The notes beneath the pieces are model-generated. The model had not been told where the DNA came from and did not search any database. It was given only the letters and a program-made list of their open reading frames with translations. A stretch of DNA of 64,000 bases, taken from positions 1 through 64,000 of the IMG/VR virus record IMGVR_UViG_3300042430_000335; one strand, 5' to 3'. The DNA is from a virus. A program made the translations under genes and the position numbers. Shown here piece by piece: positions 7,726 through 64,000 of the stretch. How positions within the stretch are numbered: the stretch's first letter is position 1; each line of letters starts with the position of its first letter.

Positions 7726-8255
7726 TGTTTGATAGACTTATAGACTTATTACTAGACTGGTGGCACTATGTGTCACCAGCAATCATTATACCAAGCTATG
7801 AAGAAGCAGTTCTTCTTAGAAATGGTAAGTTTAGAAAAGTGCTAGGTCCAGGGTTCCACGTGAAACTTCCAATATTTGATGACGTTATATCACAGCATGT
7901 GGTAGTAACTACACTCAGTCTTGCTCCACAGTCCTTGTACACACAGGATAAACAGAACATTGTGGTGAAAGGAGTTATTAAATATAAGATATCAGACGTT
8001 AAGATATTCCTTTTGGAAGTCTATGATGCACAGGATGCCTTGTCTGACATTACGCAGTCCATTATAAAAAACATCATAATCACTACATCCTTAGAAGAAT
8101 GTTTAGCTCCAGACATAGATAATGTTCTTACTAAAAAAGTGAGGGTTGAAGCAAAGAAGTGGGGAGTTGATATACAACAAGTGACACTTACAGACATTGC
8201 TCCAATCAGAAGTTTTAGGATAATTAATGACTCCATCATAAACAAACTTGATTAG
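7725..8255 (+). CDS. SPFH/band-7 (prohibitin-like) domain protein, 176 aa
   Basis: The sequence reads as a compact SPFH domain. It has an N-terminal hydrophobic patch (WWHYVSPAIIIPSYEEAVLLRNG) and the typical RKVLGPGFHVKLPIFDDV, then the strand QNIVVKGVIKYKISD. It ends with the helical part DITQSIIKNIIITTSLEEC and VRVEAKKWGVDIQQVTLTDIAP. Family members (stomatin, prohibitin, flotillin) oligomerise at membranes; in bacteria, HflK/C regulate FtsH. Here it sits between portal and scaffold genes and overlaps portal by one base, so it is made with the head. It may assist membrane-associated assembly or modulate a protease. It lacks the long coiled coil of cellular members. Confidence 0.8.
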   Translation: MFDRLIDLLLDWWHYVSPAIIIPSYEEAVLLRNGKFRKVLGPGFHVKLPIFDDVISQHVVVTTLSLAPQSLYTQDKQNIVVKGVIKYKISDVKIFLLEVYDAQDALSDITQSIIKNIIITTSLEECLAPDIDNVLTKKVRVEAKKWGVDIQQVTLTDIAPIRSFRIINDSIINKLD

Positions 8256-8314
8256 AGTAAAAAATATTAATGCTATATTATCTTCAAAATTGGGGTATAT
8301 AGTGTTCGTTCTCT

Positions 8315-8344
8315 TTGCTAATAAATTAAACTACTATACTTTTG
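8315..8344 (+). promoter_or_regulatory. Bacteroidota-type promoter before the scaffold/capsid genes
   Basis: TTG at 8315-8317, a 19-nt spacer, then TACTTTTG at 8337-8344: a full consensus match 30 nt before the ATG at 8374. It would give separate, stronger expression of the scaffold-like and major capsid genes. Confidence 0.7.
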
Positions 8345-8373
8345 TATTGAAAACCAATTAAATAGAACTACAT

Positions 8374-9615
8374 ATGGCCGAAAATCTAGATAATCCCCAA
8401 TTTGGGAACTTCAGTATTCAGGACACCATGGAAATGGGAATGGGCAACACAGATCTATTAAATGATTTGATGGGACCAGAAACCGCTACAGGAAACCCTG
8501 ATGATATCAAAGATATCAACGAACCAGCTCCTGCTCCTGAAAAGAAGGCTTCAGCAAAAACTGCTGCTGCACCTAAAGAAGAAGAAAAGAAGGAAGAAAC
8601 TGTTGACATTCAAAGTTTTCTGTACGGAGAAGATACAGAAGAAGATGATGATAATAACGAAACACCTTCTGCTCCTGTTAAGAAAGAAGTTGCTGCTGAA
8701 GAAACTAAAGATGGTGAAGAAGCTGAAGAAGAGGTTTCCCAATTCACAGCTCTATCTAGAGACCTTTTCAAACTGGGCGTATTCTCCAAGGATGACGAAG
8801 AAGAAGATGTAACAATCTCTACAGCTGAAGAATTCCTTGAAAGATTTAACTCAGAAAAGAAAAAAGGTGCAATTGAGGTGGTTAACAATTTCATTGGACA
8901 GTTTGGTGAAGATTACCAACAAGCCTTTGATGCCATCTTTGTAAAGGGTGTTGACCCCAAAGAATATTTCGGTACATATAATCAAATACAGAATTTTTCA
9001 GAAATGGATCTGTCACAAGAGAATAATCAAGTGGCAGTTATAAAACAAGCTCTTGAAGATCAGGGCTTTGATCCTGAAGACATCACTACAGAAGTGGAGC
9101 GTCTGAAAAACTACGGTGATCTTGAAACTGTTGCAGCAAAACACCACAAGGTGCTAGTAAAAAAAGAGTCAGCTAAGCTGGCTAAAATGGAACAGGAACA
9201 AGAAGTACAATTACAACAACAAGCTGCTTATAAACAGCAATATGTAAATAACGTTCAAACTGTTTTGCAAGAGAAACTCAAAGCAAAAGAATTTGACGGG
9301 ATTCCCATCAATCCCAAACTTGCTGGTGAACTACAAGATTTCCTTCTAGTTGATAAGTACAAAACAAGCTCTGGTGAAAAGCTCACAGACTTTGATCGTA
9401 CCATCCTAGATCTGAAGCGTCCAGAGAATCATGAAATGAAAGTGAAGGTTGCCCTTCTTCTAAAGATCATTGAAAAAGATCCCACCCTTTCTACGATTCA
9501 AAAGACTGGCATCACCAAAAAGTCAAATGAATTGTTTGGTGAAGTTGCTAGACAAGCTAGTAAAGCTTCAGTGAAATCAAGTAAACCTAGTAAGCCAAAC
9601 TCGTGGTTTATTTAA
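8374..9615 (+). CDS. Putative scaffold/capsid assembly protein, 413 aa
   Basis: A highly acidic protein located between portal and major capsid genes, the usual place for a phage scaffold. The N-terminal 110 residues are low-complexity and charged (Ala/Pro/Lys/Glu runs such as APAPEKKASAKTAAAPKEEE). The middle is helical, and residues about 270-300 form a Gln-rich coiled coil (EQEQEVQLQQQAAYKQQY). The C-terminal 30 residues are basic (TKKSNELFGEVARQASKASV), as in the capsid-binding tails of scaffolds. The start follows GAACTACAT-ATG with no Shine-Dalgarno. A T8 run after the stop precedes the capsid gene. Function is inferred from position and composition. Confidence 0.7.
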   Translation: MAENLDNPQFGNFSIQDTMEMGMGNTDLLNDLMGPETATGNPDDIKDINEPAPAPEKKASAKTAAAPKEEEKKEETVDIQSFLYGEDTEEDDDNNETPSAPVKKEVAAEETKDGEEAEEEVSQFTALSRDLFKLGVFSKDDEEEDVTISTAEEFLERFNSEKKKGAIEVVNNFIGQFGEDYQQAFDAIFVKGVDPKEYFGTYNQIQNFSEMDLSQENNQVAVIKQALEDQGFDPEDITTEVERLKNYGDLETVAAKHHKVLVKKESAKLAKMEQEQEVQLQQQAAYKQQYVNNVQTVLQEKLKAKEFDGIPINPKLAGELQDFLLVDKYKTSSGEKLTDFDRTILDLKRPENHEMKVKVALLLKIIEKDPTLSTIQKTGITKKSNELFGEVARQASKASVKSSKPSKPNSWFI

Positions 9616-50570: not shown

Positions 50571-53500
50571 ATGATTGTTGGTTGTGAAGCAACTCCTTGT
50601 CCTGTTATATTAAATGCCACTTGCGTATTTTACGAAGGTGAGAATTTGATATATACAGGCATTAATACTAATGACAACTTGCAAACTGCACTCGAAAAGA
50701 TCGATGCTAAGTTTCAAGATGCTACTATTGGGTATATATTTGACAACGGAATCATTCAACTTTCTCCTGGTCAACCAGTAAAACTAGGGGGTGCTCTTAT
50801 AGAAGATACAGTAATCAATAGTGCAGGATATACATTTACCCTTACAGGGTCTATTGAAACTGCTGCTTTCATTACAACAGGTGGAACTTCTAATGATTTT
50901 GTTAAAGGAGATGGATCTTTAGATTCAACATCTTACCAGCCTGCTGGTAATTACATCACCAACCTCACTGGTGATGGTACAGCATCTGGTCCAGGCAGTG
51001 TTCCATTTACACTAGCCACTGTGAATGTTTCTCCAGGAACATTTGGATCTTCTACAACTGTTCCTGTTGTAACAGTGAACGGTAAAGGATTAGTAACAAA
51101 CATTACACCAGTACCAATCAATCTCCCATCAGACATCATCATTCTCCAAGGAGATGTTTCTGGTGTTGGTAACACAGGAGTTCCTCTGACAACCACCCTT
51201 GCTACAGTTAACAGTAATGTGTATGGATCAAATACACCTCTAAAGTTTGCTGTAAACGCAAAAGGATTGGTAACCTCCGCTGCTCCCTTGACAGCTGGAG
51301 ACATTATTGGATTATTGGGATATACACCAGTTCCAGACTCTAGAACTATTACAATCAATGGTGTCACTAGAGATCTCACTGCAGATAGAACTTTTAATGT
51401 TGGTACAGTTACAAGTGTACAGGCAGCAGTTCCTCCTGCATTTTCTGTAACCACTCCTCCAATTACAAGCTTTGGAACAATTAATATTGTTGCAACAGGT
51501 AATACATCTGAATATATTAGAGGAGATGGTGCTCTAGCAATTTTTCCAGTTACAACATCTGGAACTGCAGGAAGTTCTGGAACAAGTGGAACCTCAGGTA
51601 GCTCTGGTACAACAGGTACATCAGGAAGTTCAGGAAGCTCATCTACCTCTGGATCTAGTGGTACAAGTGGCACTACAGGAACTAGTGGTAGTAGTGGAAC
51701 AAGTGCTACATCAGGAACATCAGGAACCTCAGGCACTACAGGAACCTCTGGTACCACGGGTACTTCTGGAACGACAGGAACCTCTGGTAGTTCTGGAACC
51801 TCTGGTAGTACAGGTACGTCTGGAACCTCTGGCACTTCTGCAACAAGTGGTACAAGCGGAACTAGTGCTACAGATGGAACAGGGGGTACAAGTGGTACAT
51901 CAGGTACGTCAGCAACTAGTGGAACTAGTGGTACAACAGGAACTAGTGGGTCTAGTGGCACCAGTGGAACAAGTGGTTCATCTGGTACTGATGGTAGTGG
52001 TGGTACAAGCGGTACATCTGGCTCATCAGGAACAGATGGAACTAGTGCAACATCAGGAACTAGTGGTACTACAGGTACCTCAGGAACCTCTGCAACTAGT
52101 GGAACATCAGGAACATCTGGCATCTCTGGTACGGATGGTTCAGGAGGAACAAGCGGTACATCAGGTACATCTGCCACTTCAGGTTCATCAGGATCTTCTG
52201 GAACTAACGGTTCTGCAGGAACATCTGGTACAAGTGGTACGAGTGCTACAAGTGGTTCATCTGGAAGCTCAGGATCTTCTGGCTCAAGTGGAACTACTGG
52301 TACATCAGGAACTGCTGGTACGAGTGGTACATCTGGAACAAATGGTTCAGCTGGTAGTAGTGGAACTAGTGGAACATCAGGAAGTAGTGGAACTACAGGG
52401 ACTTCTGGTACCGCTGGAACATCAGGAACAACTGGTACTAGTGGAACGTCAGGGTCTAGTGGAACTTCTGGAACATCTGCAACCAGCGGAACAAGTGGAA
52501 CTAATGGTACTGGAGGAACTAGTGGTACCACAGGCACATCAGGAACGAGTGGTACTAGTGGCACAAATGGATCTGGGGGCACTTCAGGAACAAGTGCAAC
52601 TAGCGGAACTAGTGGAACAAGTGCTACATCAGGTACTTCTGGTACAGCAGGAACAACAGGTACATCTGGATCTTCAGGTTTGAGTGGTGATAGATTTGCC
52701 ACAACATCAACATCAACATATACATTAGGAGCTGTAGGTACAACGGGAACTATTACAGTGGGAACAGGATTAGCATATACAATTGCTCAGTCTATTATTG
52801 TTGCCTACGATGCTAACAATCACGTAGAAGCTGAGGTTACATCTTATAACCCAGCAACTGGCTCATTGAGCTTTATTGTATTTAGGCTTACAGGGTCTGG
52901 TACATATAGCACATGGCAAGTAAACCTTGATGGTGCTACAGGGGGAGATGGTTCAAGTGGATCATCAGGTACAAGTGGTACGTCTGCAACAGCAGGCACT
53001 TCGGGCACTACAGGTACCTCAGGATCAAGTGGGTCTTCAGGAACTACAGGTACATCTGGTACATCTGGCAGTCCTGGTACATCTGGAACCAGCGCTACTA
53101 GTGGAACATCTGGAACTACGGGTACTTCGGGCACCACAGGAACTAGTGGTACCTCTGGCTCTTCAGGCACTTCAGGAACTAATGGGTCTGGAGGAACAAG
53201 CGGAACCAGTGGAACTACAGGCACATCTGGAACAGCAGGTTCTTCTGGTACAAGCGGTACAAGTGCAACCTCTGGAAGCTCAGGTACAAGTGGCACCAAT
53301 GGAACAGGTGGAACATCTGGTACAAGTGGTACCACAGGTACATCTGGTTCAAGTGGAACATCAGCCACATCAGGATCAAGCGGTTCTAGTGGATCTTCTG
53401 CCACCTCTGGTACATCTGGCACATCTGGTACAAACGGTAGTGCTGGATCAAGTGGATCTAGTGGAAGCTCTGGTAGCTCAGGATCATCTGGTACAGCTGG

Positions 53501-56500
53501 TACAGCAGGTAGTCCAGGTACATCTGGTACATCAGGCTCTAGCGGCACTACAGGAACTAGTGGTACATCTGGCACTACAGGTACAAGCGGTACAACAGGT
53601 ACTTCTGGAACTAGCGGATTGTCTGGATCTAGTGGTACAAGTGGAACAAACGGTACTGGTGGTACATCAGGAACTTCTGGATCTTCTGGCACTGCTGGTA
53701 GCTCAGGAACAGCAGGAAGCAGTGGAACTAGCGGAACTGCAGGCACTTCAGGCACTAATGGCTCAGGAGGAACTAGTGGAACAAGCGGAAGCAGTGCCAC
53801 ATCTGGAACCTCTGGAACAACAGGAACTAGTGGCTCTTCAGGAACAGCAGGTTCAAGTGGTACATCTGTAGCTGTAGCTGGTACGCCAGAATATATAGTG
53901 AAGTTTACATCATCTACAACAATTGGCGATAGTAAAACATGTCAAAAGACTAACGGTGACCTATGTGTCAACCTAGTTGGTGGCAGTGGTGTTGATGTTG
54001 GTAAGGGTGGTGGAAGTATTGCTTCTAACACAATAGTAGGAACTAATGCTCTACAATACAATTCTACAGGAGTACAAAACACAGCTGTTGGATTATATGC
54101 TTTAAGAAATAACAATATAGGTACTTTTAACACAGCTATGGGTTCCCAAGCCCTAAGAGCCAATACTTCAGGAACAGGTAATACAGCTGTAGGTCATCAA
54201 TCTCTTTATAAAAATACAACCGGTATTTCAAATACTGCTGTTGGTCAAGGTGCTTTAATATGTAATACTGTTGGAAACAGCAATACAGCTGTTGGTAGAG
54301 AAGCATTAAACTTAAACACAGCATCAAATAACACAGCATTAGGATTTAGTGCGTTAAGAAATAATACTACTGGTACAGACAACACAGCAGTAGGTAGGCT
54401 AACTTTATCAAACAATACAGTAGGTGCTAGTAACGTAGCAATAGGAGGTTTATCTTTACTTAATAATACATCAGGTGCAACGAATACCGCAATAGGTGCC
54501 AGTACATTAAGGTATAATACAGTAGGTACAAATAATATAGCAGTTGGATTAAACGCTTTGTTTTGTAATACAACTGGTAATTGCAATTTAGCTATTGGAA
54601 TTAATGCTTTATACTGTAACACAGCCTCAAACAACACAGCAGTCGGATTCTGTGCATTAAGAAGCAATACTACTGGTACTTATAACACAGCTATAGGAAG
54701 AAGTTCTCTAGCTTCTAATACTATAGGCACCTACAACTCAGCATTAGGATTTTATGCACTTATAGGTAATACAACCGGTAATTGTAACTTAGCAGTAGGA
54801 GTAAACGCACTACGATGTAATACTGTAGGAGGTAATAACATAGCATTAGGTGTACATGCACTTTGTTTAAATACAGCATCATCCAACACAGCAGTAGGTG
54901 CTAGCGCATTAAGAAATAATACAACAGGAGTATTTAATACAGCAGTTGGATTTAATACACTTCTTAGTAATACCACAGGATATAGTAATACAGCTGTTGG
55001 GTACAGAACACTACAATGTAACACAAGAGGACTTGATAACACGTCTATAGGTACACTTTCTTCCTGCTGTAACACAACAGGATGTTACAACACTGTAGTT
55101 GGATCTTCAGCACTTAGGTATAATACAACAGGAAACAGTAATGTAGCGATGGGTTTCTTTGCCCTTCGTCAAAACACAGCATCAAACAATACAGCAGTTG
55201 GATTCTGTGCGTTAAGAAGTAATACCACAGGAAACAGTAACATAGCTTTAGGTCCTTATGCATTAAGAAAAAACACTACTGCCTGTGCTAACGTTGCGAT
55301 AGGAACAAGTGCACTAGAAAATAATACGACTGGAACTAATAACACAGCAGTCGGTACACTTGCCTTATACACTAACGTTGTAGGTACTAATAACACTGCT
55401 CTTGGTAGAAACGCTTTGTTTGCCAACACAGCCTCAAACAACACAGCAGTCGGGTTCTGTGCATTAAGAAGTAATACAACTGGTACAGTTAATACAGCTA
55501 TAGGTACCGATGCATTATCTTCAAACACATCTGGTGAACGAAATATAGCAATCGGTGCTAATGCTTTACAGAATAATTTAATAGGAAATCGTAATACAGC
55601 TATTGGTCAGGGTTCGTTGTATAAAAATACAGCATCATATAACACTGCTGTCGGATATTTTACTTTAGCATGTAACACTACTGGTATTAGTAATACAGCA
55701 GTGGGTGTAAGAGCATTAACAAAAAATACAATAGGTGTAGGAAATATTGCAGTGGGCGGAGGTGCATTACAATATAACTTGTCAGGAACATGCAATACTG
55801 CTATAGGTTTACAATCGTTATTATGCAATACAGCAGGTGTTAACAATACTGCTATTGGCCATCAATCACTTTATTGCAACACAGCATCAGCCAATACAGC
55901 AGTCGGTTTTTGTGCATTAAGAAGTAATACAACAGGTGCATATAACGTTACTATTGGTGTAAGCTCACTTAAAAATAATACGACAGGTGCCGCTAATACA
56001 GCTGTAGGTGTAGATGCTTTATATTCTAATACTGTAGGTCTTAACAATACAGCCTTAGGCAGAAGTGCATTACTTTGCAATACAGCATCAAATAACACAG
56101 CAGTTGGTTTACAAGCTTTAAGGAGTAATACAACAGGTACTTCAAACACGGCTGTTGGTTTACAAGCATTATTTTCTAATACAGTAGGTATAAATAATGC
56201 AGCGTTTGGTCATGGAGCTCTTTTCAATAATACAACAGGATACAACAACAATGCTTTTGGTAATTCAGCATTAGCAAATAACACAGTAGGTGCTAATAAC
56301 ACCGCTATGGGTCAAACAGCACTGTATAAAAATACTACAGGTGTTAACAACGTAGCAATTGGTAGAGAAGCACTTACACAAAACTTAGTTGGAGCGTGTA
56401 ATACTGCTCTTGGAACAAGAGCTCTTGAATGTAATTTAGCATCAAACAACACAGCAGTCGGGTTCTGTGCATTAAGAAGTAATACTACTGGTACTAGTAA

Positions 56501-58343
56501 TGTAGCAATAGGAGGTAATGCTTTATTATCTAATACAATTGGTGGTTCAAATGTCTCTATAGGTTTTTGCTCATTAGTTAATAACACTTCAGGCGGTAAT
56601 AACACAGCAATAAACAGATACTCATTACTTTATAATACCACAGGTGCTAATAATACCGCGGTGGGTGTTGCTAGTTTGTTTGCTAATACTGTTGGTACTT
56701 CTAATACTGCTATAGGTGTTGACTCGTTAAGATGTAACACAGCATCAAACAATACAGCAGTAGGTTTCTGCTCATTAAGAAGTAATACTACTGGTGCATA
56801 CAATACAGCGTTGGGCTGTAGAGCATTAGTTTGCAATACAATAGGAAACCAAAACACAGGATTAGGTGTTAATGCATTGTTTAGTAACACAACAGGTGTT
56901 TGTAATACTGCTGTAGGTGTAAATGCCTTAAATTCTAATACTGTAGGTAGTAATAATACAGCAGTAGGTCTTCAAGCCCTCTATTCAAACACAGCCTCAA
57001 ACAACACAGCAGTTGGTTTTTGTGCATTAAGAAGTACTACTACTGGTATAGACAACGTAGCAGTAGGAGTCTGTGCATTAGAAGCAAATACAATAGGAAG
57101 TGACAATACTGCTATTGGTTCTTTAGCATTAGCAAGTAACACTACAGGAACTCTCAATATAGCTATTGGTAGACTTGCTTCAGAAAAAAATACAACTGCA
57201 GTCAATAATATATCTATAGGTGTTGAAGCTCTTAGATGTAACACAACAGGCTGTAATAACGTAGCAATAGGTAGAAGCGCTTTAAGAGTAAATACAGGCA
57301 GGTATTTAACAGCAGTAGGTGACAGAACATTATATTCAAACACATCAGGCACAGGAAACTCTGCATTTGGTAGAACAGCTCTATTTACTAATACAACAGG
57401 AATAAATAACACTGCTGTTGGATATTCATCACTACAACAAAACGTTACTGGAGGCGGTAATACTGCTGTAGGGTTTTATTCTCTACAAGCAAATACAGCA
57501 TCCGATAATACAGCAGTAGGATTTTGCGCATTAAAAGCTAATACTACTGGATATCAAAACACCGCTACTGGAAACCTAGCGCTCTCCTGTAACACTATTG
57601 GTTACGGCAACACAGCAATGGGATTCTGTGCATTACGCTGTAATACAACAGGTGCAGGAAATACTGCAGTAGGTAAAGGCGCTTTAAATCTCAACACTAC
57701 TGGTCTTTGGAATACAGCTGTTGGAGATAGAGCTTTAAATTCTAATGATGTAGGTAGAGCAAATATTGCCGTTGGGCAGTTTGCAATGCAATTTAATAGC
57801 AACGGTAAGTATAATATTGCAATTGGTAATAGTTCTGCTGCTAACTTTTATGCTGGTACAGATAATAATATTGTTATAGGAGACAACGCTACAACTTCTG
57901 CAATAGATAATCACACCGTATGGGGTAACGCAAACAACAACGTTTGCAACTGCGTATATGCAGCTTGGTCTGTAGTGTCAGACTGTCGTGATAAGACAAA
58001 TATTAAACCTCTTCCAGATGGTTTAGGTCTCAACTTCATTAAGAAGATTAAGCCTGTAACCTACAATTGGGACAACCGTGATAACTATGTTAAGGAGTGT
58101 GGGTTTGAGTATGGAACAAAAGATGGTACGCTGTCTGGTGTAAGAGAACATTATGGAGTGATAGCTCAGGATGTGAAAGCTGCTATAGATGAGCTAGGAG
58201 TAAAGTTTGATGCTCTGGGACATGATGAAGATAAAGATGCCTATCGTGTAACATATGAAGAACTCATAGCACCAATTATCAAAGCTATACAAGAGCTAGA
58301 TGGAAGAGTGGAAAATCTAGAAAAAAGTTGTGGAAATAAATAA
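50571..58343 (+). CDS. Giant fibre: adaptor, collagen-like tracts, YadA-type repeats, S74 chaperone; 2590 aa
   Basis: Domain order: (1) shared adaptor module, residues 1-48. (2) Tail-fibre base, about 50-325, with ATVNVSPGTFGSSTTVPV-type repeats and LLGYTPVPDSRTITINGV. (3) Collagen-like Gly-X-Y tract, about 330-706. (4) Small beta domain, about 707-790. (5) Second collagen-like tract, about 791-1100. (6) About 76 repeats of NTAVGxxALxxNTTG type, about 1155-2440. (7) C-terminal S74 intramolecular chaperone, about 2465-2590, with S2470-D2471 in SDCRDKTNIKPL and YGVIAQDVKAAI. The trimeric fibre would fold with the chaperone, which then cleaves itself off at the Ser. It is likely the main receptor-binding fibre. 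Confidence 0.88.
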   Translation: MIVGCEATPCPVILNATCVFYEGENLIYTGINTNDNLQTALEKIDAKFQDATIGYIFDNGIIQLSPGQPVKLGGALIEDTVINSAGYTFTLTGSIETAAFITTGGTSNDFVKGDGSLDSTSYQPAGNYITNLTGDGTASGPGSVPFTLATVNVSPGTFGSSTTVPVVTVNGKGLVTNITPVPINLPSDIIILQGDVSGVGNTGVPLTTTLATVNSNVYGSNTPLKFAVNAKGLVTSAAPLTAGDIIGLLGYTPVPDSRTITINGVTRDLTADRTFNVGTVTSVQAAVPPAFSVTTPPITSFGTINIVATGNTSEYIRGDGALAIFPVTTSGTAGSSGTSGTSGSSGTTGTSGSSGSSSTSGSSGTSGTTGTSGSSGTSATSGTSGTSGTTGTSGTTGTSGTTGTSGSSGTSGSTGTSGTSGTSATSGTSGTSATDGTGGTSGTSGTSATSGTSGTTGTSGSSGTSGTSGSSGTDGSGGTSGTSGSSGTDGTSATSGTSGTTGTSGTSATSGTSGTSGISGTDGSGGTSGTSGTSATSGSSGSSGTNGSAGTSGTSGTSATSGSSGSSGSSGSSGTTGTSGTAGTSGTSGTNGSAGSSGTSGTSGSSGTTGTSGTAGTSGTTGTSGTSGSSGTSGTSATSGTSGTNGTGGTSGTTGTSGTSGTSGTNGSGGTSGTSATSGTSGTSATSGTSGTAGTTGTSGSSGLSGDRFATTSTSTYTLGAVGTTGTITVGTGLAYTIAQSIIVAYDANNHVEAEVTSYNPATGSLSFIVFRLTGSGTYSTWQVNLDGATGGDGSSGSSGTSGTSATAGTSGTTGTSGSSGSSGTTGTSGTSGSPGTSGTSATSGTSGTTGTSGTTGTSGTSGSSGTSGTNGSGGTSGTSGTTGTSGTAGSSGTSGTSATSGSSGTSGTNGTGGTSGTSGTTGTSGSSGTSATSGSSGSSGSSATSGTSGTSGTNGSAGSSGSSGSSGSSGSSGTAGTAGSPGTSGTSGSSGTTGTSGTSGTTGTSGTTGTSGTSGLSGSSGTSGTNGTGGTSGTSGSSGTAGSSGTAGSSGTSGTAGTSGTNGSGGTSGTSGSSATSGTSGTTGTSGSSGTAGSSGTSVAVAGTPEYIVKFTSSTTIGDSKTCQKTNGDLCVNLVGGSGVDVGKGGGSIASNTIVGTNALQYNSTGVQNTAVGLYALRNNNIGTFNTAMGSQALRANTSGTGNTAVGHQSLYKNTTGISNTAVGQGALICNTVGNSNTAVGREALNLNTASNNTALGFSALRNNTTGTDNTAVGRLTLSNNTVGASNVAIGGLSLLNNTSGATNTAIGASTLRYNTVGTNNIAVGLNALFCNTTGNCNLAIGINALYCNTASNNTAVGFCALRSNTTGTYNTAIGRSSLASNTIGTYNSALGFYALIGNTTGNCNLAVGVNALRCNTVGGNNIALGVHALCLNTASSNTAVGASALRNNTTGVFNTAVGFNTLLSNTTGYSNTAVGYRTLQCNTRGLDNTSIGTLSSCCNTTGCYNTVVGSSALRYNTTGNSNVAMGFFALRQNTASNNTAVGFCALRSNTTGNSNIALGPYALRKNTTACANVAIGTSALENNTTGTNNTAVGTLALYTNVVGTNNTALGRNALFANTASNNTAVGFCALRSNTTGTVNTAIGTDALSSNTSGERNIAIGANALQNNLIGNRNTAIGQGSLYKNTASYNTAVGYFTLACNTTGISNTAVGVRALTKNTIGVGNIAVGGGALQYNLSGTCNTAIGLQSLLCNTAGVNNTAIGHQSLYCNTASANTAVGFCALRSNTTGAYNVTIGVSSLKNNTTGAANTAVGVDALYSNTVGLNNTALGRSALLCNTASNNTAVGLQALRSNTTGTSNTAVGLQALFSNTVGINNAAFGHGALFNNTTGYNNNAFGNSALANNTVGANNTAMGQTALYKNTTGVNNVAIGREALTQNLVGACNTALGTRALECNLASNNTAVGFCALRSNTTGTSNVAIGGNALLSNTIGGSNVSIGFCSLVNNTSGGNNTAINRYSLLYNTTGANNTAVGVASLFANTVGTSNTAIGVDSLRCNTASNNTAVGFCSLRSNTTGAYNTALGCRALVCNTIGNQNTGLGVNALFSNTTGVCNTAVGVNALNSNTVGSNNTAVGLQALYSNTASNNTAVGFCALRSTTTGIDNVAVGVCALEANTIGSDNTAIGSLALASNTTGTLNIAIGRLASEKNTTAVNNISIGVEALRCNTTGCNNVAIGRSALRVNTGRYLTAVGDRTLYSNTSGTGNSAFGRTALFTNTTGINNTAVGYSSLQQNVTGGGNTAVGFYSLQANTASDNTAVGFCALKANTTGYQNTATGNLALSCNTIGYGNTAMGFCALRCNTTGAGNTAVGKGALNLNTTGLWNTAVGDRALNSNDVGRANIAVGQFAMQFNSNGKYNIAIGNSSAANFYAGTDNNIVIGDNATTSAIDNHTVWGNANNNVCNCVYAAWSVVSDCRDKTNIKPLPDGLGLNFIKKIKPVTYNWDNRDNYVKECGFEYGTKDGTLSGVREHYGVIAQDVKAAIDELGVKFDALGHDEDKDAYRVTYEELIAPIIKAIQELDGRVENLEKSCGNK
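51556..52689 (+). repeat. Collagen-like Gly-X-Y tract 1 in the fibre gene
   Basis: About 125 triplets of the form G-T-S, G-S-S, G-T-T, G-T-A, G-T-N and G-T-D, with occasional A in place of G (SATSG). Almost no Pro or charged residues. Edges approximate. Confidence 0.85.
52944..53869 (+). repeat. Collagen-like Gly-X-Y tract 2 in the fibre gene
   Basis: About 103 triplets of the same Ser/Thr-rich type, with two or three SPG triplets. It is separated from tract 1 by an 85-residue beta domain. Edges approximate. Confidence 0.85.
54031..57900 (+). repeat. About 76 tandem 17-residue YadA-head-type repeats
   Basis: The unit is N-T-T/V-G-x-x-N-T-A-V/I-G-x-x-A-L-x-x (51 nt). Every fourth to seventh unit is a 16-residue variant, NTASNNTAVGFCALRS (48 nt), which marks a higher-order repeat. 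Marker starts lie near 54325, 54627, 54880, 55181, 55434, 55637, 55889, 56092, 56445, 56748, 57000 and 57501. Confidence 0.85.
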
Positions 58344-58361
58344 AACTACATATATTTGCCT

Positions 58362-59021
58362 ATGCGTAGAGTGCTCATAGGTACACCCTCATATGATGGA
58401 AGGATAGATGTTTGGTTTGCAAACTCGCTCTTGGGTACGGTTAAACTGGCTTATGAAAAGGAAATATTTGTCCACGCCATCTATACAAGCTATGACAGTC
58501 TCATCCAAAGAGCTAGAAACAGTCTATTTAGACTTGCTATGGAGGGAGGGTATGACGATCTGTTCTTTATAGATTCTGATGCTGAATGGGAACCAGAATG
58601 GTTTTTCAGGCTTTTGGATAGACCAGAACCATTTATAGGTGGGGCTCTTGTAAAAAAGAGTGATAAGAATGAGGGGTATACAGTGAAGTTGATGGACAAA
58701 ACTCTTAAGAAGTCTAAGGATGAAAAGCTTATAGAAGTGGATGGTGTAGGTACTGGCTTCCTCAAAATAAGTAGATTTGCATTGGAGAAGCTTTGGGATA
58801 TAAGTGATGAGTATATGAGTGAAGGTGAAAAGCATAGAATGGTGTGTGACATAAAGGTGGAGAATGGTGATCTTATATCTGAAGACTACATCCTTTGTAA
58901 CAAGTGGAAATCCTTAGGATATAAGGTGTGGTTAGATCCAACCATTACACTCAACCACATAGGAACAAAGAAATTCAAGGGTGATTTTAATACCTTTATA
59001 ACAAAACACGGATATGTTTGA
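58362..59021 (+). CDS. GT-A-type (family 2-like) glycosyltransferase, 219 aa
   Basis: The fold is indicated by the N-terminal strand VLIGTPSYDGRID and the metal/nucleotide motif FFIDSDAEWEPEW, with D71-S-D73 as the DxD. A short acceptor-side region follows (VDGVGTGFLKISRFAL), and then WLDPTITLNHIGTKKFKG. I take ATG 58362 as start; a TTG two codons earlier is in frame but overlaps a TATATTTG box. It opens the glycan cassette directly behind the fibre gene. Likely transfers a sugar from a nucleotide-sugar donor to a growing glycan in the host cytoplasm. It overlaps the next gene by 8 nt. Confidence 0.75.
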   Translation: MRRVLIGTPSYDGRIDVWFANSLLGTVKLAYEKEIFVHAIYTSYDSLIQRARNSLFRLAMEGGYDDLFFIDSDAEWEPEWFFRLLDRPEPFIGGALVKKSDKNEGYTVKLMDKTLKKSKDEKLIEVDGVGTGFLKISRFALEKLWDISDEYMSEGEKHRMVCDIKVENGDLISEDYILCNKWKSLGYKVWLDPTITLNHIGTKKFKGDFNTFITKHGYV

Positions 59022-59925
59022 TAAACCAATGGGCGGTACAGAGCTTATGTATAATGAACTCATGAGAAGACTGCCTGAAGAATATAAAGACAAATGGTCT
59101 ATATTCAACTACATAGGAGATGCTGACTTTGAAAAACCTACCATCTATTGGAACCAGTTGAGCTATGACCAACAGGCTGTACAATGGTTGACAGATCCTA
59201 AGAACGTTGAAGCAATTGATCAGTTTGTTTTTGTAAGTCACTGGCAATCAGAATATTATAGGAAACTATTCAACATTCCTGGATACAAAACTTCTGTTAT
59301 AAAGAACGCTTGTGTTGGTGTAGAACCACGTAAACCAGGAGAAAGAGATATAGTGAAGCTTTGTTATACGTCCACACCCTTCAGAGGACTTGATGTTCTT
59401 CTAAAGGCATGGGATATACTTAAGCTTAAAAACTGTGAACTACATGTTTTCTCTAGCTGTAAAATATATGGAGAAGACTTTGCTTCTACAGAAGATCCTA
59501 AATATACAGACTTATATAACGCCTGTCTAAACACAGAAGGAATTGTATACAGAGGATCTATTCCTAACGAGGAGCTGAGGAAGGAACTTTCCAGCTTTGA
59601 CATTTTAGCCTATCCCTGTACATTTGAGGAAACCTCTTGTATAGCTGTGATAGAAGCTCTGTCAGCTGGTCTAAGGGTGGTAACAAGTAACATAGGAGCA
59701 CTGCCTGAAACTACAGAAGGATGGGCAACTATCTATCCCTATCTGATGGATAAGGATAAACATGCTGAGGTGTTTGCTTCCATTCTTAAGAAAGAAATAG
59801 AAGCTGTGAGAAACGGAATGCACCTTGAAGAACAAGTGAAGACATATGCTCCTAAGTGGAGCTGGGACAATAGAATAAACCAATGGACAAACTATTTAGA
59901 CACATTGACCCCAAAAGAGCTTTAG
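59014..59925 (+). CDS. GT-B-type (family 4) glycosyltransferase, 303 aa
   Basis: The sequence has the family 4 order: GGTELMYNEL near the N terminus, FVFVSHWQSEYYRKLF, then VIKNACVGVEP, the linker VKLCYTSTPFRGLDVLLKAW, and the C-terminal donor site with the EX7E motif (E206 and E214 in FEETSCIAVIEALSAG). It transfers a sugar from an NDP donor with retention. The N-terminal acceptor domain is shorter than usual (about 350-400 aa is common). The start overlaps the previous gene (ATGTTTGA), indicating coupled translation. Confidence 0.82.
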   Translation: MFDKPMGGTELMYNELMRRLPEEYKDKWSIFNYIGDADFEKPTIYWNQLSYDQQAVQWLTDPKNVEAIDQFVFVSHWQSEYYRKLFNIPGYKTSVIKNACVGVEPRKPGERDIVKLCYTSTPFRGLDVLLKAWDILKLKNCELHVFSSCKIYGEDFASTEDPKYTDLYNACLNTEGIVYRGSIPNEELRKELSSFDILAYPCTFEETSCIAVIEALSAGLRVVTSNIGALPETTEGWATIYPYLMDKDKHAEVFASILKKEIEAVRNGMHLEEQVKTYAPKWSWDNRINQWTNYLDTLTPKEL

Positions 59926-60482
59926 ACATAGGGGCACATGTAGGTTCTTTTACTAAAGAACTCTACTATAAATTCCCTGAGTGTCAAATAGTTATGATAG
60001 AGGCTAACAAAAACTGTGAGCCCTATCTAAGACTGCTGGGTAAGCCCTACGAAATTGTAGCTCTGTCTGATAAAAATGGAACAGCTGAGTTACATATAGA
60101 GGATGTAAATCCAATTGGTACAGGAAGTTCCTTGTATAAGGAGAACACCAATTGGTACACAGAGGGTAAAACACAGACAGTGATTACAAAGCGCCTAGAT
60201 GATTGCAACTACTTTGATGGAGCTCCTATAGATTTCATTAAACTAGATGTACAAGGTTCTGAGTTAGACATAATTAGAGGTGGTGAGAATACAATAAAAA
60301 ATACTACCTTTGTAATGATGGAGGTGTCCTTACTTGAATACAATCAGGGAGCACCTCTCATGGATGCTGTGGTGAACAAGATGATAGACCTTGGGTTTTA
60401 TATTGTAGATATTGTTGACTACCATTGTTCTAACGGCATCATCTTCCAATTGGACTTATTATTTAAAAACTTAAAACAATAA
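59883..60482 (+). CDS. FkbM-family SAM-dependent methyltransferase, 199 aa
   Basis: Motif I is LDIGAHVGSF at 14-23 (SAM binding). Later come IVMIEANKNCEPYLR (acidic ribose-binding residue) and FIKLDVQGSELDIIRGG with D122 and E127, typical for FkbM proteins. These usually O-methylate sugars. The ATG at 59883 lies inside the glycosyltransferase gene (43-nt overlap), but no later Met precedes motif I, so it is kept. In this cassette it would cap or modify the glycan. Confidence 0.82.
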   Translation: MDKLFRHIDPKRALDIGAHVGSFTKELYYKFPECQIVMIEANKNCEPYLRLLGKPYEIVALSDKNGTAELHIEDVNPIGTGSSLYKENTNWYTEGKTQTVITKRLDDCNYFDGAPIDFIKLDVQGSELDIIRGGENTIKNTTFVMMEVSLLEYNQGAPLMDAVVNKMIDLGFYIVDIVDYHCSNGIIFQLDLLFKNLKQ

Positions 60483-60488
60483 TTAGCT

Positions 60489-60839
60489 ATGAAAATGCTT
60501 TTTGCAAAGATCAATCCCGTTGCTGAAATTCCTGAAATGGAATCTCCTTTTGCCTATGATGTTAAAACAGCTGACTATCTAACAGCGGTAGCATCTCCTT
60601 ATCGCTTAGGTGCTGAAGAAGTGAGCTTTAGTCTCATCTATGGTACTGCTACATTTGATGCTGAAGGAAACATGGAAACCTTCAAACGTCTGTTGGGCGG
60701 TAGCCTCAACTTGGGTGCTCCTTACATTCAAGAGTGGGGTATTGATGACACTGTAATTCTTGGCACTATTTGTGAGCAAGTAGGAACAGAAGCTGTTGAG
60801 TTTATTGAAGGAAATCCAAAGGACTTCAATCCATTCTAA
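60489..60839 (+). CDS. Hypothetical protein in glycan cassette, 116 aa
   Basis: A soluble, acidic protein (ESPFAYDVKTADYLTAVA, then GAEEVSFSLIYGTATFDAEG and GAPYIQEWGIDD). Beta-strand content seems high. It resembles none of the sugar enzymes around it and looks more like a small virion or binding protein. It lies between the methyltransferase and the sulfotransferase genes. Function not recognised. Confidence 0.6.
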   Translation: MKMLFAKINPVAEIPEMESPFAYDVKTADYLTAVASPYRLGAEEVSFSLIYGTATFDAEGNMETFKRLLGGSLNLGAPYIQEWGIDDTVILGTICEQVGTEAVEFIEGNPKDFNPF

Positions 60840-60864: not shown

Positions 60865-61686
60865 ATGGTCAAGAAGATATTCTACAACAGCTCTCTCCCA
60901 AGAGCTGGAAGTACCCTTATTCAAAACATTCTAGCACAGAATCCAGAGATTCATTCCACTCCTACATCTGGCATCTTTGAGATGTACACAAATGCCCGTA
61001 ACTATTTCTCTAACGGATTAGAGTTTAAGGCACAGGATCAACAACTCATGGAAGCAGGGTTTAAGGGAATGTTGAAAGATGGACTCTATGGATTCTATAA
61101 TGCTATAACAGAACGTCCGTATGTTATGGAAAAATCTAGGGGTTGGGCAATGGAGCGTGATTTTCTTCATGCCTTTGATCCCAACCCCAAGATTATTTGC
61201 ATGATTAGGGACATCCGTGCTATATATTCTTCTCTAGAGAAGAAGTATAGACAGAACCCTTTGGTGGACACAAACATTGCTAACTGGGGAAACCTAACAG
61301 GTACCACCACAGATAAGCGTATGGTGGTGTGGTCCAACAATCCTCCTATTGGTCCAGCTCTGGACCGATTATACCAGACACTCGTAGCTGGTACACATCA
61401 ACACATCCTATTTATTAAATTTGAAGAACTGTGTATAGATCCTAATGCGCAACTAAAGCGCATCTATGACTATCTAGAGATTCCGTTCTTCCAACATGAC
61501 TTCAAAAATATTCAACAATACTCCACAGAAGATGATAAGTGGTATGGAATATTTGGAGATCATGTCATTCGTGGTGAACTCAAACCTGTAAAGGATGATT
61601 ATCGTGAAGTGTTAGGACCTAATGCTTGTAAGATAATAGAGGACAGTTATAGATGGTTCTTTAATGATTTTGGATATAAAATATAA
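60865..61686 (+). CDS. PAPS-dependent sulfotransferase, 273 aa
   Basis: The 5'-phosphosulfate-binding loop is LPRAGSTLIQ at residues 11-20 (family consensus PRSGTTLL). The 3'-phosphate-binding motif is IRDIRAIYSS with R115, D116 and R118 (family RDPRD..S). FIKFEELCIDPNAQLKRIYDYL follows as in the Sulfotransfer family. It moves a sulfuryl group from PAPS to a hydroxyl or amine, probably of a sugar given the neighbouring genes. An APS-kinase-like gene that could supply PAPS lies two genes downstream. Start ATG 60865 places the loop at the expected N-terminal position. Confidence 0.85.
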   Translation: MVKKIFYNSSLPRAGSTLIQNILAQNPEIHSTPTSGIFEMYTNARNYFSNGLEFKAQDQQLMEAGFKGMLKDGLYGFYNAITERPYVMEKSRGWAMERDFLHAFDPNPKIICMIRDIRAIYSSLEKKYRQNPLVDTNIANWGNLTGTTTDKRMVVWSNNPPIGPALDRLYQTLVAGTHQHILFIKFEELCIDPNAQLKRIYDYLEIPFFQHDFKNIQQYSTEDDKWYGIFGDHVIRGELKPVKDDYREVLGPNACKIIEDSYRWFFNDFGYKI

Positions 61687-61689
61687 CCA

Positions 61690-62637
61690 ATGAACGTAGG
61701 ATATAAAACAGAAGCAGAAGCAGAAGAAAAACTAACAGTGTTAGAAGACCGTTCTGTAGATAGTAATAAGTATGTTGTATGGCACATCGAAGGTGGGTTA
61801 GGAAAGAACATAGCAGCAACATCTCTTATAAAGGATGTGAAAGAACGCTATGCTGATAGAAAACTCATTATGGTGGTATCCTATCCAGAGATATTCCTAA
61901 ACAACCCTAACATACACAGGGTGTATAGAGTGGGTTCCACTTCTTACTTCTATGATGATTATATAAAGGATAGGGACACTATTGTATTTCGTCATGAGCC
62001 TTATTTCCAAAGTGACCACATCATGCGTAAGAAGCATCTGATACACAACTGGTGTGACCTGCTTGATGTTTCTTATAAAGAACAGCTTCCTCAGCTTCAT
62101 CCCAATGCTGTACAGAAGATGTTGCAATACAACTGGCAAAGAGAAAAACCTGTAATGGTAATACAAACTAATGGAGGTTCATTTAATAGTACATTCTCTT
62201 ATGCTTGGACTAGAGACATGCCTTATGAAGTAGCTGTGGCTATTGCTGAGCGTTATAGTAACACTCATCACATTATACAGGTGACTAGACCAAACACCAA
62301 TCTGATTCCTAATGTAGAACATGTAACACAACAAATGTCCAACTTTGAAATGTTCTCCATCCTTGCCACATCTCAAAAACGTGTGTTAATAGATTCTTTC
62401 TTACAACATGCTGCAGCAGGAATGGGACTTTCTTCTACAGTGTTATGGGTAGGAACATCTCCTGTCAACTTTGGATATAAGATGCACAATAATATTGTCG
62501 CTAAAGATCCTCCTGGCACTACAAAGCTTATAGATAGCTACATCTTTGATTATTCCTTTGAAGGAACTGTTCACGAATGTCCTTACAACAGTATAGAGGA
62601 AATGTTTGACATTAATAACATATTGAAAACTATATGA
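61690..62637 (+). CDS. Heptosyltransferase-like (family 9-type) glycosyltransferase, 315 aa
   Basis: The order of elements resembles GT-B family 9: VWHIEGGLGKNIAATSLIKDV at the N terminus (as pieces GGLGKNIAAT) and LIMVVSYPEIFLNNPNIHRV. The C-terminal half has VMVIQTNGG, HHIIQVTRPN and FEMFSILATSQKRVLIDSFLQH followed by AAAGMGLSSTVLWVGTSP, where family 9 has its H-x-A-AA-x-G-PS-x-x-L element. It would transfer heptose or a related sugar. It starts 3 nt after the sulfotransferase and ends in an ATGA overlap with the kinase gene. Confidence 0.75.
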   Translation: MNVGYKTEAEAEEKLTVLEDRSVDSNKYVVWHIEGGLGKNIAATSLIKDVKERYADRKLIMVVSYPEIFLNNPNIHRVYRVGSTSYFYDDYIKDRDTIVFRHEPYFQSDHIMRKKHLIHNWCDLLDVSYKEQLPQLHPNAVQKMLQYNWQREKPVMVIQTNGGSFNSTFSYAWTRDMPYEVAVAIAERYSNTHHIIQVTRPNTNLIPNVEHVTQQMSNFEMFSILATSQKRVLIDSFLQHAAAGMGLSSTVLWVGTSPVNFGYKMHNNIVAKDPPGTTKLIDSYIFDYSFEGTVHECPYNSIEEMFDINNILKTI

Positions 62638-63080
62638 TTATTGCACTCTTTGGACAACCACATAGTGGTAAGTCAACAATAGCAAACCAGTTTCCTTCTT
62701 ATAAAAATATAGATGGGGACAAGCTCAGAGAGTTATTTGCTAACAAGGACTATAGCAGAGAAGGACGTATTAGAAACTTGAACAGAGCTAGTGATATTGC
62801 TCACTACCTACATAGTCATGGTAATAACATCACTCTATCTCTTGTATATCCATATAAAGAAGCTCGAGACTATCTCAACAGTCTCACAGAAGATGTGTGT
62901 TGGATATATTTAACATATGAAGGAGAAAGAGGAAGAGAGAAGTTTCATGTTCAAGACTTTGAACAACCTTCAGAAGAAGAAGCTTTGTACATTGATACAT
63001 CTTCCTTATCTTTGGATCATTGTGTACAACTAATAAACAACTACATCAATGCAAAACGTTCTAGCAAAAGCAGCAAGTAA
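62634..63080 (+). CDS. Adenylylsulfate (APS) kinase-like protein, 148 aa
   Basis: A P-loop kinase with Walker A GQPHSGKST at 7-15. Then comes NIDGDKLRELF with D27-G-D29, and SREGRIRNLNRASDIAHYLHSHG at 41-63. This order (DGDxxR, then R.xNLxRAxxIA, then SLVYPYKEARDY) is that of CysC, which phosphorylates APS to PAPS. It is shorter than typical bacterial CysC (about 200 aa), mainly at the C terminus. With the sulfotransferase it could form a donor-acceptor pair. A general nucleotide kinase is the alternative. Confidence 0.75.
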   Translation: MIIALFGQPHSGKSTIANQFPSYKNIDGDKLRELFANKDYSREGRIRNLNRASDIAHYLHSHGNNITLSLVYPYKEARDYLNSLTEDVCWIYLTYEGERGREKFHVQDFEQPSEEEALYIDTSSLSLDHCVQLINNYINAKRSSKSSK

Positions 63081-63435
63081 ATCAGGACAATGGGCAATGT
63101 TCATTGGTAGATGGCAACCATGGCACGAAGGACACAGATGGTTGATTGACCAAGCATTTAACGAAGATAAAAAGGTGCTCTTGTGTATAAGGGATGTTCC
63201 TGTGGATGAGAAGAACCCCTGGTCTGCTATTGAAGTGATGATGAACCTCACTAACGAACTAATAGATCTTGTTGAGGAAGGTAAGTTGAGAATCATCATC
63301 ATCCCTGATATTGAATCTATCAATATTGGTAGAGGAGTGGGTTATGATGTTATAGAACATGTTCCTCCTGCAGACATACATGACATCTCTGCTACAAAGA
63401 TTAGAGAACAAATGAAAGCAGAGGGTAAGTTATGA
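63049..63435 (+). CDS. HxGH nucleotidyltransferase (NMNAT/cytidylyltransferase-like), 128 aa
   Basis: GRWQPWHEGH at 20-29 is the nucleotide-binding motif of the nucleotidyltransferase superfamily (GRFxPxHxGH). ISATKIREQM at 113-122 is the second motif (ISxTxIR). The size fits NadM/NadR-type adenylyltransferases or glycerol-phosphate-type cytidylyltransferases. ATP sulfurylase belongs to the same superfamily, but its motifs (HxxH and ISGTxxR) fit less well and it is much longer. It may activate a sugar, an alditol phosphate or, least likely, sulfate. It overlaps the kinase by 32 nt and the next gene by 4 nt. Confidence 0.75.
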   Translation: MQNVLAKAASKSGQWAMFIGRWQPWHEGHRWLIDQAFNEDKKVLLCIRDVPVDEKNPWSAIEVMMNLTNELIDLVEEGKLRIIIIPDIESINIGRGVGYDVIEHVPPADIHDISATKIREQMKAEGKL

Positions 63436-63659
63436 TGCAAGTAGAAAGAAAACGACACATAGCTAAAACTGTTAGCTACCGCCTCATAAGTACACTCATT
63501 GGTGTTCTCACTATGTTTATTGTAACAGGATCTATAAAAGCAGGTGCTGCATTTGGTGTGGCTGAGTTGTTATGGAAACCTATACAATACTACATCCACG
63601 AACGTATATGGTATAAGTGGATTAGATATGGTTTAAAAGGACAAAAACAACCTGACTAG
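63432..63659 (+). CDS. DUF2061-like small membrane protein, 75 aa
   Basis: The sequence KTVSYRLISTLIGVLTMFIV and GSIKAGAAFGVAELLWKPIQ, then YYIHERIWYKWIRYG, matches the DUF2061 pattern: a basic N terminus, two membrane helices and a closing IHERIW. Function is unknown. It is coupled to the nucleotidyltransferase by an ATGA overlap, so it belongs to the same activated-donor module. Its last 38 bases overlap the convergent minus-strand gene. Confidence 0.7.
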   Translation: MMQVERKRHIAKTVSYRLISTLIGVLTMFIVTGSIKAGAAFGVAELLWKPIQYYIHERIWYKWIRYGLKGQKQPD

Positions 63660-64000
63660 CATCTATCTTCTGGTGGCATTCAAACTGTCTGTCTGTTCCC
63701 TTGTGTTCAGGACACCAGTCCCAATCTCCTGCATCAAATCTTACGTCTTCTCTATTCCAACACCCGTGACAAACATTTTTGTTTGTAATTCTAATACAAT
63801 CAAACTCGTGGTTATCTTCAGTGAAATTACTGATCATAACCACTTTTTTATTCATAGCCCAGGCTAACCAACTAAGTCCACTAGATAGTCCTATGAACAG
63901 ATGACTGTGATGAATGATATTCATAGTGTTCTCTATGGATGCATCTTCTATCTGCTCACAATTGTCAAAAGGATTCTTCTCCTTAGATACATTGATAACA
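63622..64000 (-). CDS. Heptosyltransferase-like protein, partial (N terminus outside window)
   Basis: The minus-strand frame stays open to the right edge, so the N terminus lies beyond the window; an internal Met at 63924 is not the likely start. The visible C-terminal 125 residues include TMNIIHHSHLFIGLSSGLSW, LAWAMNKKVVMISNFTE, NKNVCHGCWN and WDWCPEHKGTDRQFECHQ. This is the pattern of autotransporter strand-loop-strand O-heptosyltransferases, which glycosylate Ser/Thr of surface proteins and bind iron through Cys residues. It converges with the DUF2061-like gene (38-nt overlap) and probably ends an oppositely transcribed block. Confidence 0.78.
   Translation of the reverse strand, partial: VINVSKEKNPFDNCEQIEDASIENTMNIIHHSHLFIGLSSGLSWLAWAMNKKVVMISNFTEDNHEFDCIRITNKNVCHGCWNREDVRFDAGDWDWCPEHKGTDRQFECHQKIDASQVVFVLLNHI

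Follow-up and report, generated by a model that had tools for sequence, protein, structure and literature searches.

A phage gene cluster with a proposed sulfation module and a small HxGH nucleotidylyltransferase as candidate for a new class of ATP sulfurylase

Introduction

Bifunctional PAPS synthases, such as animal PAPSS and the Sat-CysC fusions found for example in Aquifex (PDB 2gks), carry out by coupling or fusion of an adenylyltransferase and an APS kinase the same two steps that we propose here for two small, neighbouring phage proteins. In viruses, the nearest described counterparts are the phage cysC genes, which are widespread in freshwater, are likewise APS-kinase-like and have been reported as auxiliary metabolic genes of assimilatory sulfate reduction (PMC10914622; also PMC9611531); in some samples their transcripts were more abundant than those of host cysC (PMC10914622). 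Among openly licensed papers, we found no novel ATP sulfurylase of the type described below, no NMN adenylyltransferase (NMNAT)-like enzyme replacing CysD and no such partner of the kinase, nor any link between DUF2061 and CysC, any phage module of PAPS synthesis and sulfotransferase or any phage sulfation.

The DNA analysed here (the window) is a 64-kb stretch, positions 1 to 64,000 of the IMG/VR virus record IMGVR_UViG_3300042430_000335, which is 88,518 bp long. According to an original prediction, the phage supplies its sulfotransferase with PAPS of its own making. Recurrent gene linkage, protein fold, residue conservation and the surroundings of homologues in cells now support this claim well, while the sulfated glycan of host surface or virion that was also proposed stays conjectural. 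The module is real, conserved and functionally coherent and the earlier idea is right in its core; the larger point to emerge is a candidate class of ATP sulfurylase.

Results

The window encodes a terminase large subunit, a portal protein and a major head protein, whose relatives in sequenced phages, among the matches listed, are mainly from Flavobacterium phages (about 21% identity), with one from a Leptolyngbya phage (26% identity). Between 60865 and 63659, five genes follow one another on the + strand with gaps near zero, in the order sulfotransferase (ST), a 315-aa protein, APS-kinase-like protein (KIN), nucleotidylyltransferase (NT) and DUF2061 protein. The ST and KIN reading frames are present where they had been placed, and the run is, as claimed, closely packed on one strand. 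The label heptosyltransferase-like that had been given to the 315-aa product (61690..62637, + strand) could not be confirmed, since it has no Pfam family at E<=1 and its PHROG match is weak and of unknown function (phrog_8954, 9e-4); we refer to it as a putative glycosyltransferase, and most sister viral loci have kept its gene close to the module. Upstream on the same strand lie genes for a glycosyltransferase-2-like protein (58356..59021; phrog_1574, unknown function, 6.6e-24; PF00535 below its cut-off), a group 1 (GT4-type) glycosyltransferase (59014..59925; PF13692, 7.8e-12; phrog_2170, 2.9e-33), an FkbM-family methyltransferase (59883..60482; PF05050, 2.4e-21) and a 116-aa protein (60489..60839) that gave no match in Pfam, PHROG or curated equivalog profiles and whose homologues (32-39% identity) lie close to the module in several sister loci. 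A 1160-aa methyltransferase/GT4/GT9 protein is encoded on the opposite strand after the module.

ST (60865..61686, + strand) is a sulfotransferase of the PAPS-dependent type, well over the gathering cut-off of Sulfotransfer_3 (PF13469; 2.9e-18, 67.4 bits, cut-off 27) and also matching Sulfotransfer_1 (PF00685; 1.7e-12). Both PAPS-binding motifs attributed to it by the original prediction are borne out: the 5'-PSB-like P12-R13-x-G15-S16-T17 and the 3'-PB-like R115-D116-x-R118....S123 are at least 95% conserved in 42 homologues. On this basis, ST would transfer the sulfuryl group from PAPS. Its resemblance to tyrosine sulfotransferase is confined to a weak PDB match.

KIN (62634..63080, + strand) passed the cut-off of the APS_kinase family (PF01583; 4e-9, 37.1 bits, cut-off 21.1) and matched APS kinases in a sequence-profile search of the PDB. 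The best PDB fold matches of its AlphaFold2 model (pLDDT 94.7) by Foldseek are also APS kinases (7yq1, E 4.6e-9; 2pez, 1m7g and 5cb8), in agreement with the identity first assigned to it. Against the canonical CysC equivalog TIGR00455, it reaches 34.4 bits with a cut-off of 138.7, in line with its shortened version of the canonical lid (KGLY...FTGI..PYE). The P-loop and DGDxxR are kept, G7, G12, K13, D27, R32, R45, P73 and R78 are invariant in 38 sequences that include canonical CysC, and N48 is invariant among 18 close relatives; the conserved Arg, Asn and Pro presumably belong to the APS-binding region. The outcome named in advance as refuting the prediction, a P-loop family other than CysC without APS-binding residues, was tested for and did not occur. 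KIN can moreover be aligned end to end with the full-length canonical CysC proteins encoded beside cellular NT genes, and we propose that it is a divergent member of the APS-kinase family that would work like CysC, rather than a canonical CysC. The window KIN had no match in isolated phages.

NT (63049..63435, + strand), which lies within the range of the original prediction but was unnamed there, is a single-domain protein of 128 aa with an NMNAT-like fold (AlphaFold2 pLDDT 91.4). Its HxGH and SxTxxR motifs and Rossmann-type fold place it in the HxGH nucleotidylyltransferase superfamily; its family matches are PF01467 (1.5e-4) and a single sub-threshold family, and the family search revealed no homology to PF01747 or to CysD/CysN. 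As NT falls outside the known ATP sulfurylase families, it is proposed as a functional analogue of these enzymes and not as a member. Among solved structures, both sequence profiles and Foldseek place it nearest to NMN adenylyltransferases, yet it scores far under the curated cut-offs for that activity (37.9 vs 127 bits for PRK01153 and 31.3 vs 181.2 for TIGR01527). In a profile alignment to MJ0541, the PDIE-GYEV region is about 30 residues shorter in NT, and R48 aligns with a Gly. Eleven residues, G20, R21, H26, G28, H29, R48, G94, R95, G98, S114 and R119, are invariant across 48 diverse sequences, with R48 and R95 as candidate sulfate-binding residues.

Between KIN and NT there is an out-of-frame overlap of 32 bp. 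A programmed frameshift joining the two proteins was considered and rejected: the N-terminus of NT (MQNxLAKA...) is conserved even where NT lies kilobases from KIN (loci L005, L013 and L033), so that separate translation is the simpler explanation.

The last gene of the run (63432..63659, + strand), just beyond the range covered by the original prediction, encodes a small DUF2061 membrane protein (PF09834; 4.1e-14, 53.2 bits, gathering score 23.1). In Chitinophagaceae, DUF2061 forms a fusion protein with APS kinase, and in locus L224 it precedes CysC-CysD-CysN; we propose an accessory role for this membrane protein in PAPS operons.

Searching viral contigs with KIN, we obtained 35 loci; ST (42-76% identity), KIN, NT and DUF2061 occur together in most of those of sufficient length. 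Scans with the NT alignment gave 80 viral loci, some on contigs already found with KIN, and 80 loci on genome contigs; linkage was counted over distinct NT proteins, leaving 77 viral and 80 genome loci. KIN is present in 75 of the 77 viral loci (at no more than 60 bp in 61), DUF2061 in 63 and a window-like sulfotransferase in 43. That the set recurs in so many divergent viral contigs argues that the module is more than a chance assembly. The genome loci contain KIN in 73 of 80 cases, fused to NT in 27 and within 60 bp of it in 38. Fusions exist in both orders and the linkage spans bacteria, archaea and phages, NT itself being found in phages, Bacteroidota, Marinimicrobia, Omnitrophota, Patescibacteria, DPANN and Haloarchaea. 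As for the sulfotransferase, viral locus L184 has one of a different family (PF03567, 1.1e-16), and about half of 49 viral NT records had no match in a Sulfotransfer_3 search, some of them being fragments or carrying another sulfotransferase family. Among isolated phages, a search with NT revealed fusions of KIN and NT, divergent in sequence, in phages of Stenotrophomonas, Clavibacter and Xanthomonas; the records of two of them, Stenotrophomonas phages DLP_6 and Bhz60, annotate no sulfotransferase in the vicinity of the fusion.

Phage sequences group together in the NT tree, with 4 label changes vs 13 in shuffles, and are placed among sequences of Bacteroidota and Marinimicrobia, although some of the contigs labelled cellular could be viral themselves. 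The sequence nearest to the window NT is viral and 81% identical.

The cellular context of NT points to sulfate activation. In a Flavobacteriales locus (L079), the order is canonical CysC, NT, CysQ and two sulfotransferases, with both CysC and CysQ above their equivalog cut-offs. We surveyed 148 genomes of the Bacteroidota order to which L079 belongs, counting NT only at E below 1e-30; weaker matches (E above 1e-8, in frames of about 150-350 aa) were taken to be other adenylyltransferases, such as CoaD. CysC exceeded the TIGR00455 cut-off in 63 genomes, of which 57 have CysD without NT and six NT without CysD, none having both or neither (Fisher p=1.5e-8, a value that is too strong because the six NT genomes are related, and the displacement of CysD may represent one or two events). 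No Sat was found in these six genomes; incomplete assemblies underlie the absence calls throughout. NT follows CysC in all six, the very spot occupied by CysD in the CysD genomes where distances were checked. The two kinds of neighbourhood also have CysQ, DeoC-like, flippase, GcvH-like and TonB-like genes in common, where family matches cover CysQ in L079 and DeoC in L223 and the flippase, GcvH-like and TonB-like labels are our assumption. NT thus shows the genetic position and the exclusivity with CysD expected of an ATP sulfurylase.

More widely, neither Sat nor CysD was found in 35 of 50 NT-bearing genomes, many of them incomplete assemblies, and Sulfotransfer_3 is present in 37 of the 50. 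In all four haloarchaeal plasmids of cultured species that were inspected, a full-length CysC-NT fusion comes after a sulfotransferase. In Nitrospiraceae, NT follows sulfite reductase and APS reductase genes, the kinase being absent there; these bacteria also hold Sat elsewhere, an exception to the exclusivity of NT and Sat.

Discussion

Our analysis makes it probable that ST, KIN, NT and DUF2061 form a self-sufficient sulfation module. In the proposed pathway, NT would convert sulfate and ATP to APS and PPi, KIN would use a further ATP to turn APS into PAPS, and ST would transfer the sulfuryl group to an acceptor with release of PAP. Disposal of PAP is probably left to host CysQ, since we found no Inositol_P-family protein in 12 viral records, that of the window included; some marine phages have a small HAD-like gene between KIN and NT, whose product might take on this role. 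What the sequences show directly is the presence of the genes, their homology, linkage, predicted folds and conserved residues, together with the replacement of CysD by NT in cellular genomes; that each enzyme has the proposed activity, which acceptor is used and how the phage would profit are inferred. We also favour, with somewhat less assurance, the broader proposal that NT represents an unrecognised class of ATP sulfurylase, NMNAT-like and of about 110 residues, which together with APS kinase would constitute a minimal PAPS synthase, and that it serves phages in the sulfation of their own fibres or of the host surface. The proposed assignment of NT as an ATP sulfurylase draws on its displacement of CysD, its company of sulfur-pathway genes, the haloarchaeal fusions and the NT genomes in which neither Sat nor CysD was found.

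A glycan is the likeliest acceptor, carried either by the fibre encoded nearby or by the host surface. The gene preceding the glycosyltransferases (50571..58343, + strand) encodes a collagen-like tail fibre of 2590 aa with a C-terminal S74 chaperone (PF01391, 1.2e-66; PF13884, 1.3e-12), and residues 331-1150 of this protein are 26% Thr, 29% Ser and 29% Gly. Gly-x-y repeat ORFs of a similar kind occur near the module in several sister phages and, together with the Ser/Thr-rich fibre next door, make a fibre glycan plausible. The fibre with its adjacent glycosyltransferases is accordingly one candidate acceptor, and the data equally allow host surface glycans.

The shortened lid and low equivalog score of KIN could also reflect a shifted substrate and NT belongs to no known ATP sulfurylase family, so that the pair might make some other 3'-phosphorylated activated donor, from which the sulfotransferase-fold enzyme would move a group other than sulfate. 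Such a donor has a precedent in the methyl-phosphoramidate pathway of Campylobacter with its CysC-like kinase. We nevertheless judge this improbable: relatives of NT replace CysD beside canonical CysC and accompany CysQ as well as sulfite reductase and APS reductase, a context explained, in our analysis, only by sulfate chemistry, and the conserved residues are common to these cellular members and the phage copies. It seems no more probable that NT is an ATP sulfurylase in cells and has drifted to a regulatory or other role in the phage clade, where the host enzyme would provide the APS and only KIN and ST would count. Identity between phage NT and the L079 protein that replaces CysD is only 39%, and a host sulfurylase may suffice, but the signature residues are all retained in phage NTs and their link to KIN is near-universal.

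We give slightly less credence to KIN and NT as a NadR-like NAD salvage pair, that is, a ribosylnicotinamide kinase and an NMN adenylyltransferase that serve NAD supply or counter-defence, with ST as a chance neighbour. The nearest profiles and folds of NT agree with this, NT weakly matches NadM-type enzymes of some isolated phages, and the fused KIN-NT gene of phage Bhz60 adjoins a NADAR gene. The profile and fold of KIN are those of an APS kinase, however, and the low NMNAT scores of NT, its shortened PDIE-GYEV region, its Arg in place of Gly and its cellular association with canonical CysC, CysQ, APS reductase (CysH) and sulfotransferases rule out NAD salvage as the main reading. Equally unlikely is a kinase for cysteine assimilation during infection with an incidental ST: this is the published interpretation of phage cysC (PMC10914622; PMC9611531), but a domain search found no PAPS/APS reductase domain in the virus record and a sulfotransferase adjoins the kinase in many relatives.

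If the sulfation pathway is correct, NT would be a new class of enzyme in sulfate activation, which is central to sulfur metabolism, and would explain why some genomes with APS kinase, sulfotransferases and PAP phosphatase lack a recognisable ATP sulfurylase. Some phage genes now ascribed to cysteine assimilation would become part of a sulfation system, and sulfated phage fibres or phage-driven sulfation of the host surface would represent a new layer of phage-host interaction.

The module resembles the bifunctional PAPS synthases in its coupling or fusion of the two activities and in the match of KIN to their kinase domains, but differs in that NT is a single domain of about 110 residues outside PF01747, the sulfurylase part thus belonging to another family. 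Compared with the CysC-CysD-CysN operon, near which DUF2061 is also found in L224, the Bacteroidota NT holds the position of CysD beside CysC, with CysQ, as one small HxGH protein without the PP-loop CysD or the GTPase CysN. The nearest fold is that of the archaeal NMN adenylyltransferase NadM (PDB 1f9a, 1ej2, 2qjo), with which NT has GRxQPxHxGH and SxTxxR in common and from which it departs by its shorter PDIE-GYEV region (about 30 residues less than in MJ0541), the invariant R48, a GRxVGY motif and its sulfur-pathway neighbours. The phage cysC auxiliary metabolic genes have been given a role in assimilatory sulfate reduction, the part of the source available mentioning neither an NT partner nor a sulfotransferase link (PMC10914622). 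Also comparable are the KIN-NT fusions of phrog_10255, annotated as kinase, and of Stenotrophomonas phages DLP_6 and Bhz60, both halves of which match the window proteins and which, though divergent, have kept the signature residues of NT.

Neighbours of the kinase and nucleotidylyltransferase

A tandem DUF2061 protein lies immediately before CysC-CysD-CysN in locus L224 (2406-2804), and this position suggests that DUF2061, a small membrane protein, is an accessory of sulfate activation generally. Some phages carry a small HAD-like hydrolase gene between KIN, the short APS-kinase-like protein, and NT, the HxGH nucleotidylyltransferase (L035:6440-6784, L169:7666-8004 and L170:7666-8004), whose product is a possible PAP phosphatase. 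The gene flanked by CysC and NT in L087 (7548-7946), L090 (7548-7946) and four similar loci, all from marine Bacteroidota genomes, appears from its sequence to encode a second small nucleotidylyltransferase-like protein.

In Nitrospiraceae (L064, L065 and L068), NT immediately follows the APS reductase gene cysH (NT of L068, 7932-8438) and the kinase is absent; sulfite reductase is encoded upstream of the pair in L064 and L068. Despite the presence of NT, these genomes also have a Sat.

Glycan-related and structural genes

The 1160-aa protein with methyltransferase, GT4 and GT9 domains is encoded on the minus strand (L002:3623-7105; in part, window 63622-64000), and the end of this protein scores 129 bits against TIGR04414, the model for autotransporter O-heptosyltransferase, short of that model's cut-off of 200. 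The 2590-aa fibre (window 50571-58343) has a long Gly-Thr-Ser collagen-like part, followed by many TAVGFCALRSNTTG-like repeat units and a C-terminal S74 chaperone.

Related cassettes in plasmids and isolated phages

Haloarchaeal plasmids carry a cassette of a sulfotransferase and a CysC-NT fusion (L225-L228, about 5900-9120), which possibly serves to sulfate archaeal surface glycans; a YqcI/YcgG gene is found nearby in all four regions. Divergent KIN-NT fusions also occur in isolated Stenotrophomonas phages (L218:5587-6327 and L219:5593-6324), adjoined by NADAR and methyltransferase genes in Bhz60 and near phosphatase and oxygenase genes in DLP_6, and these two cultivable phages provide test systems.
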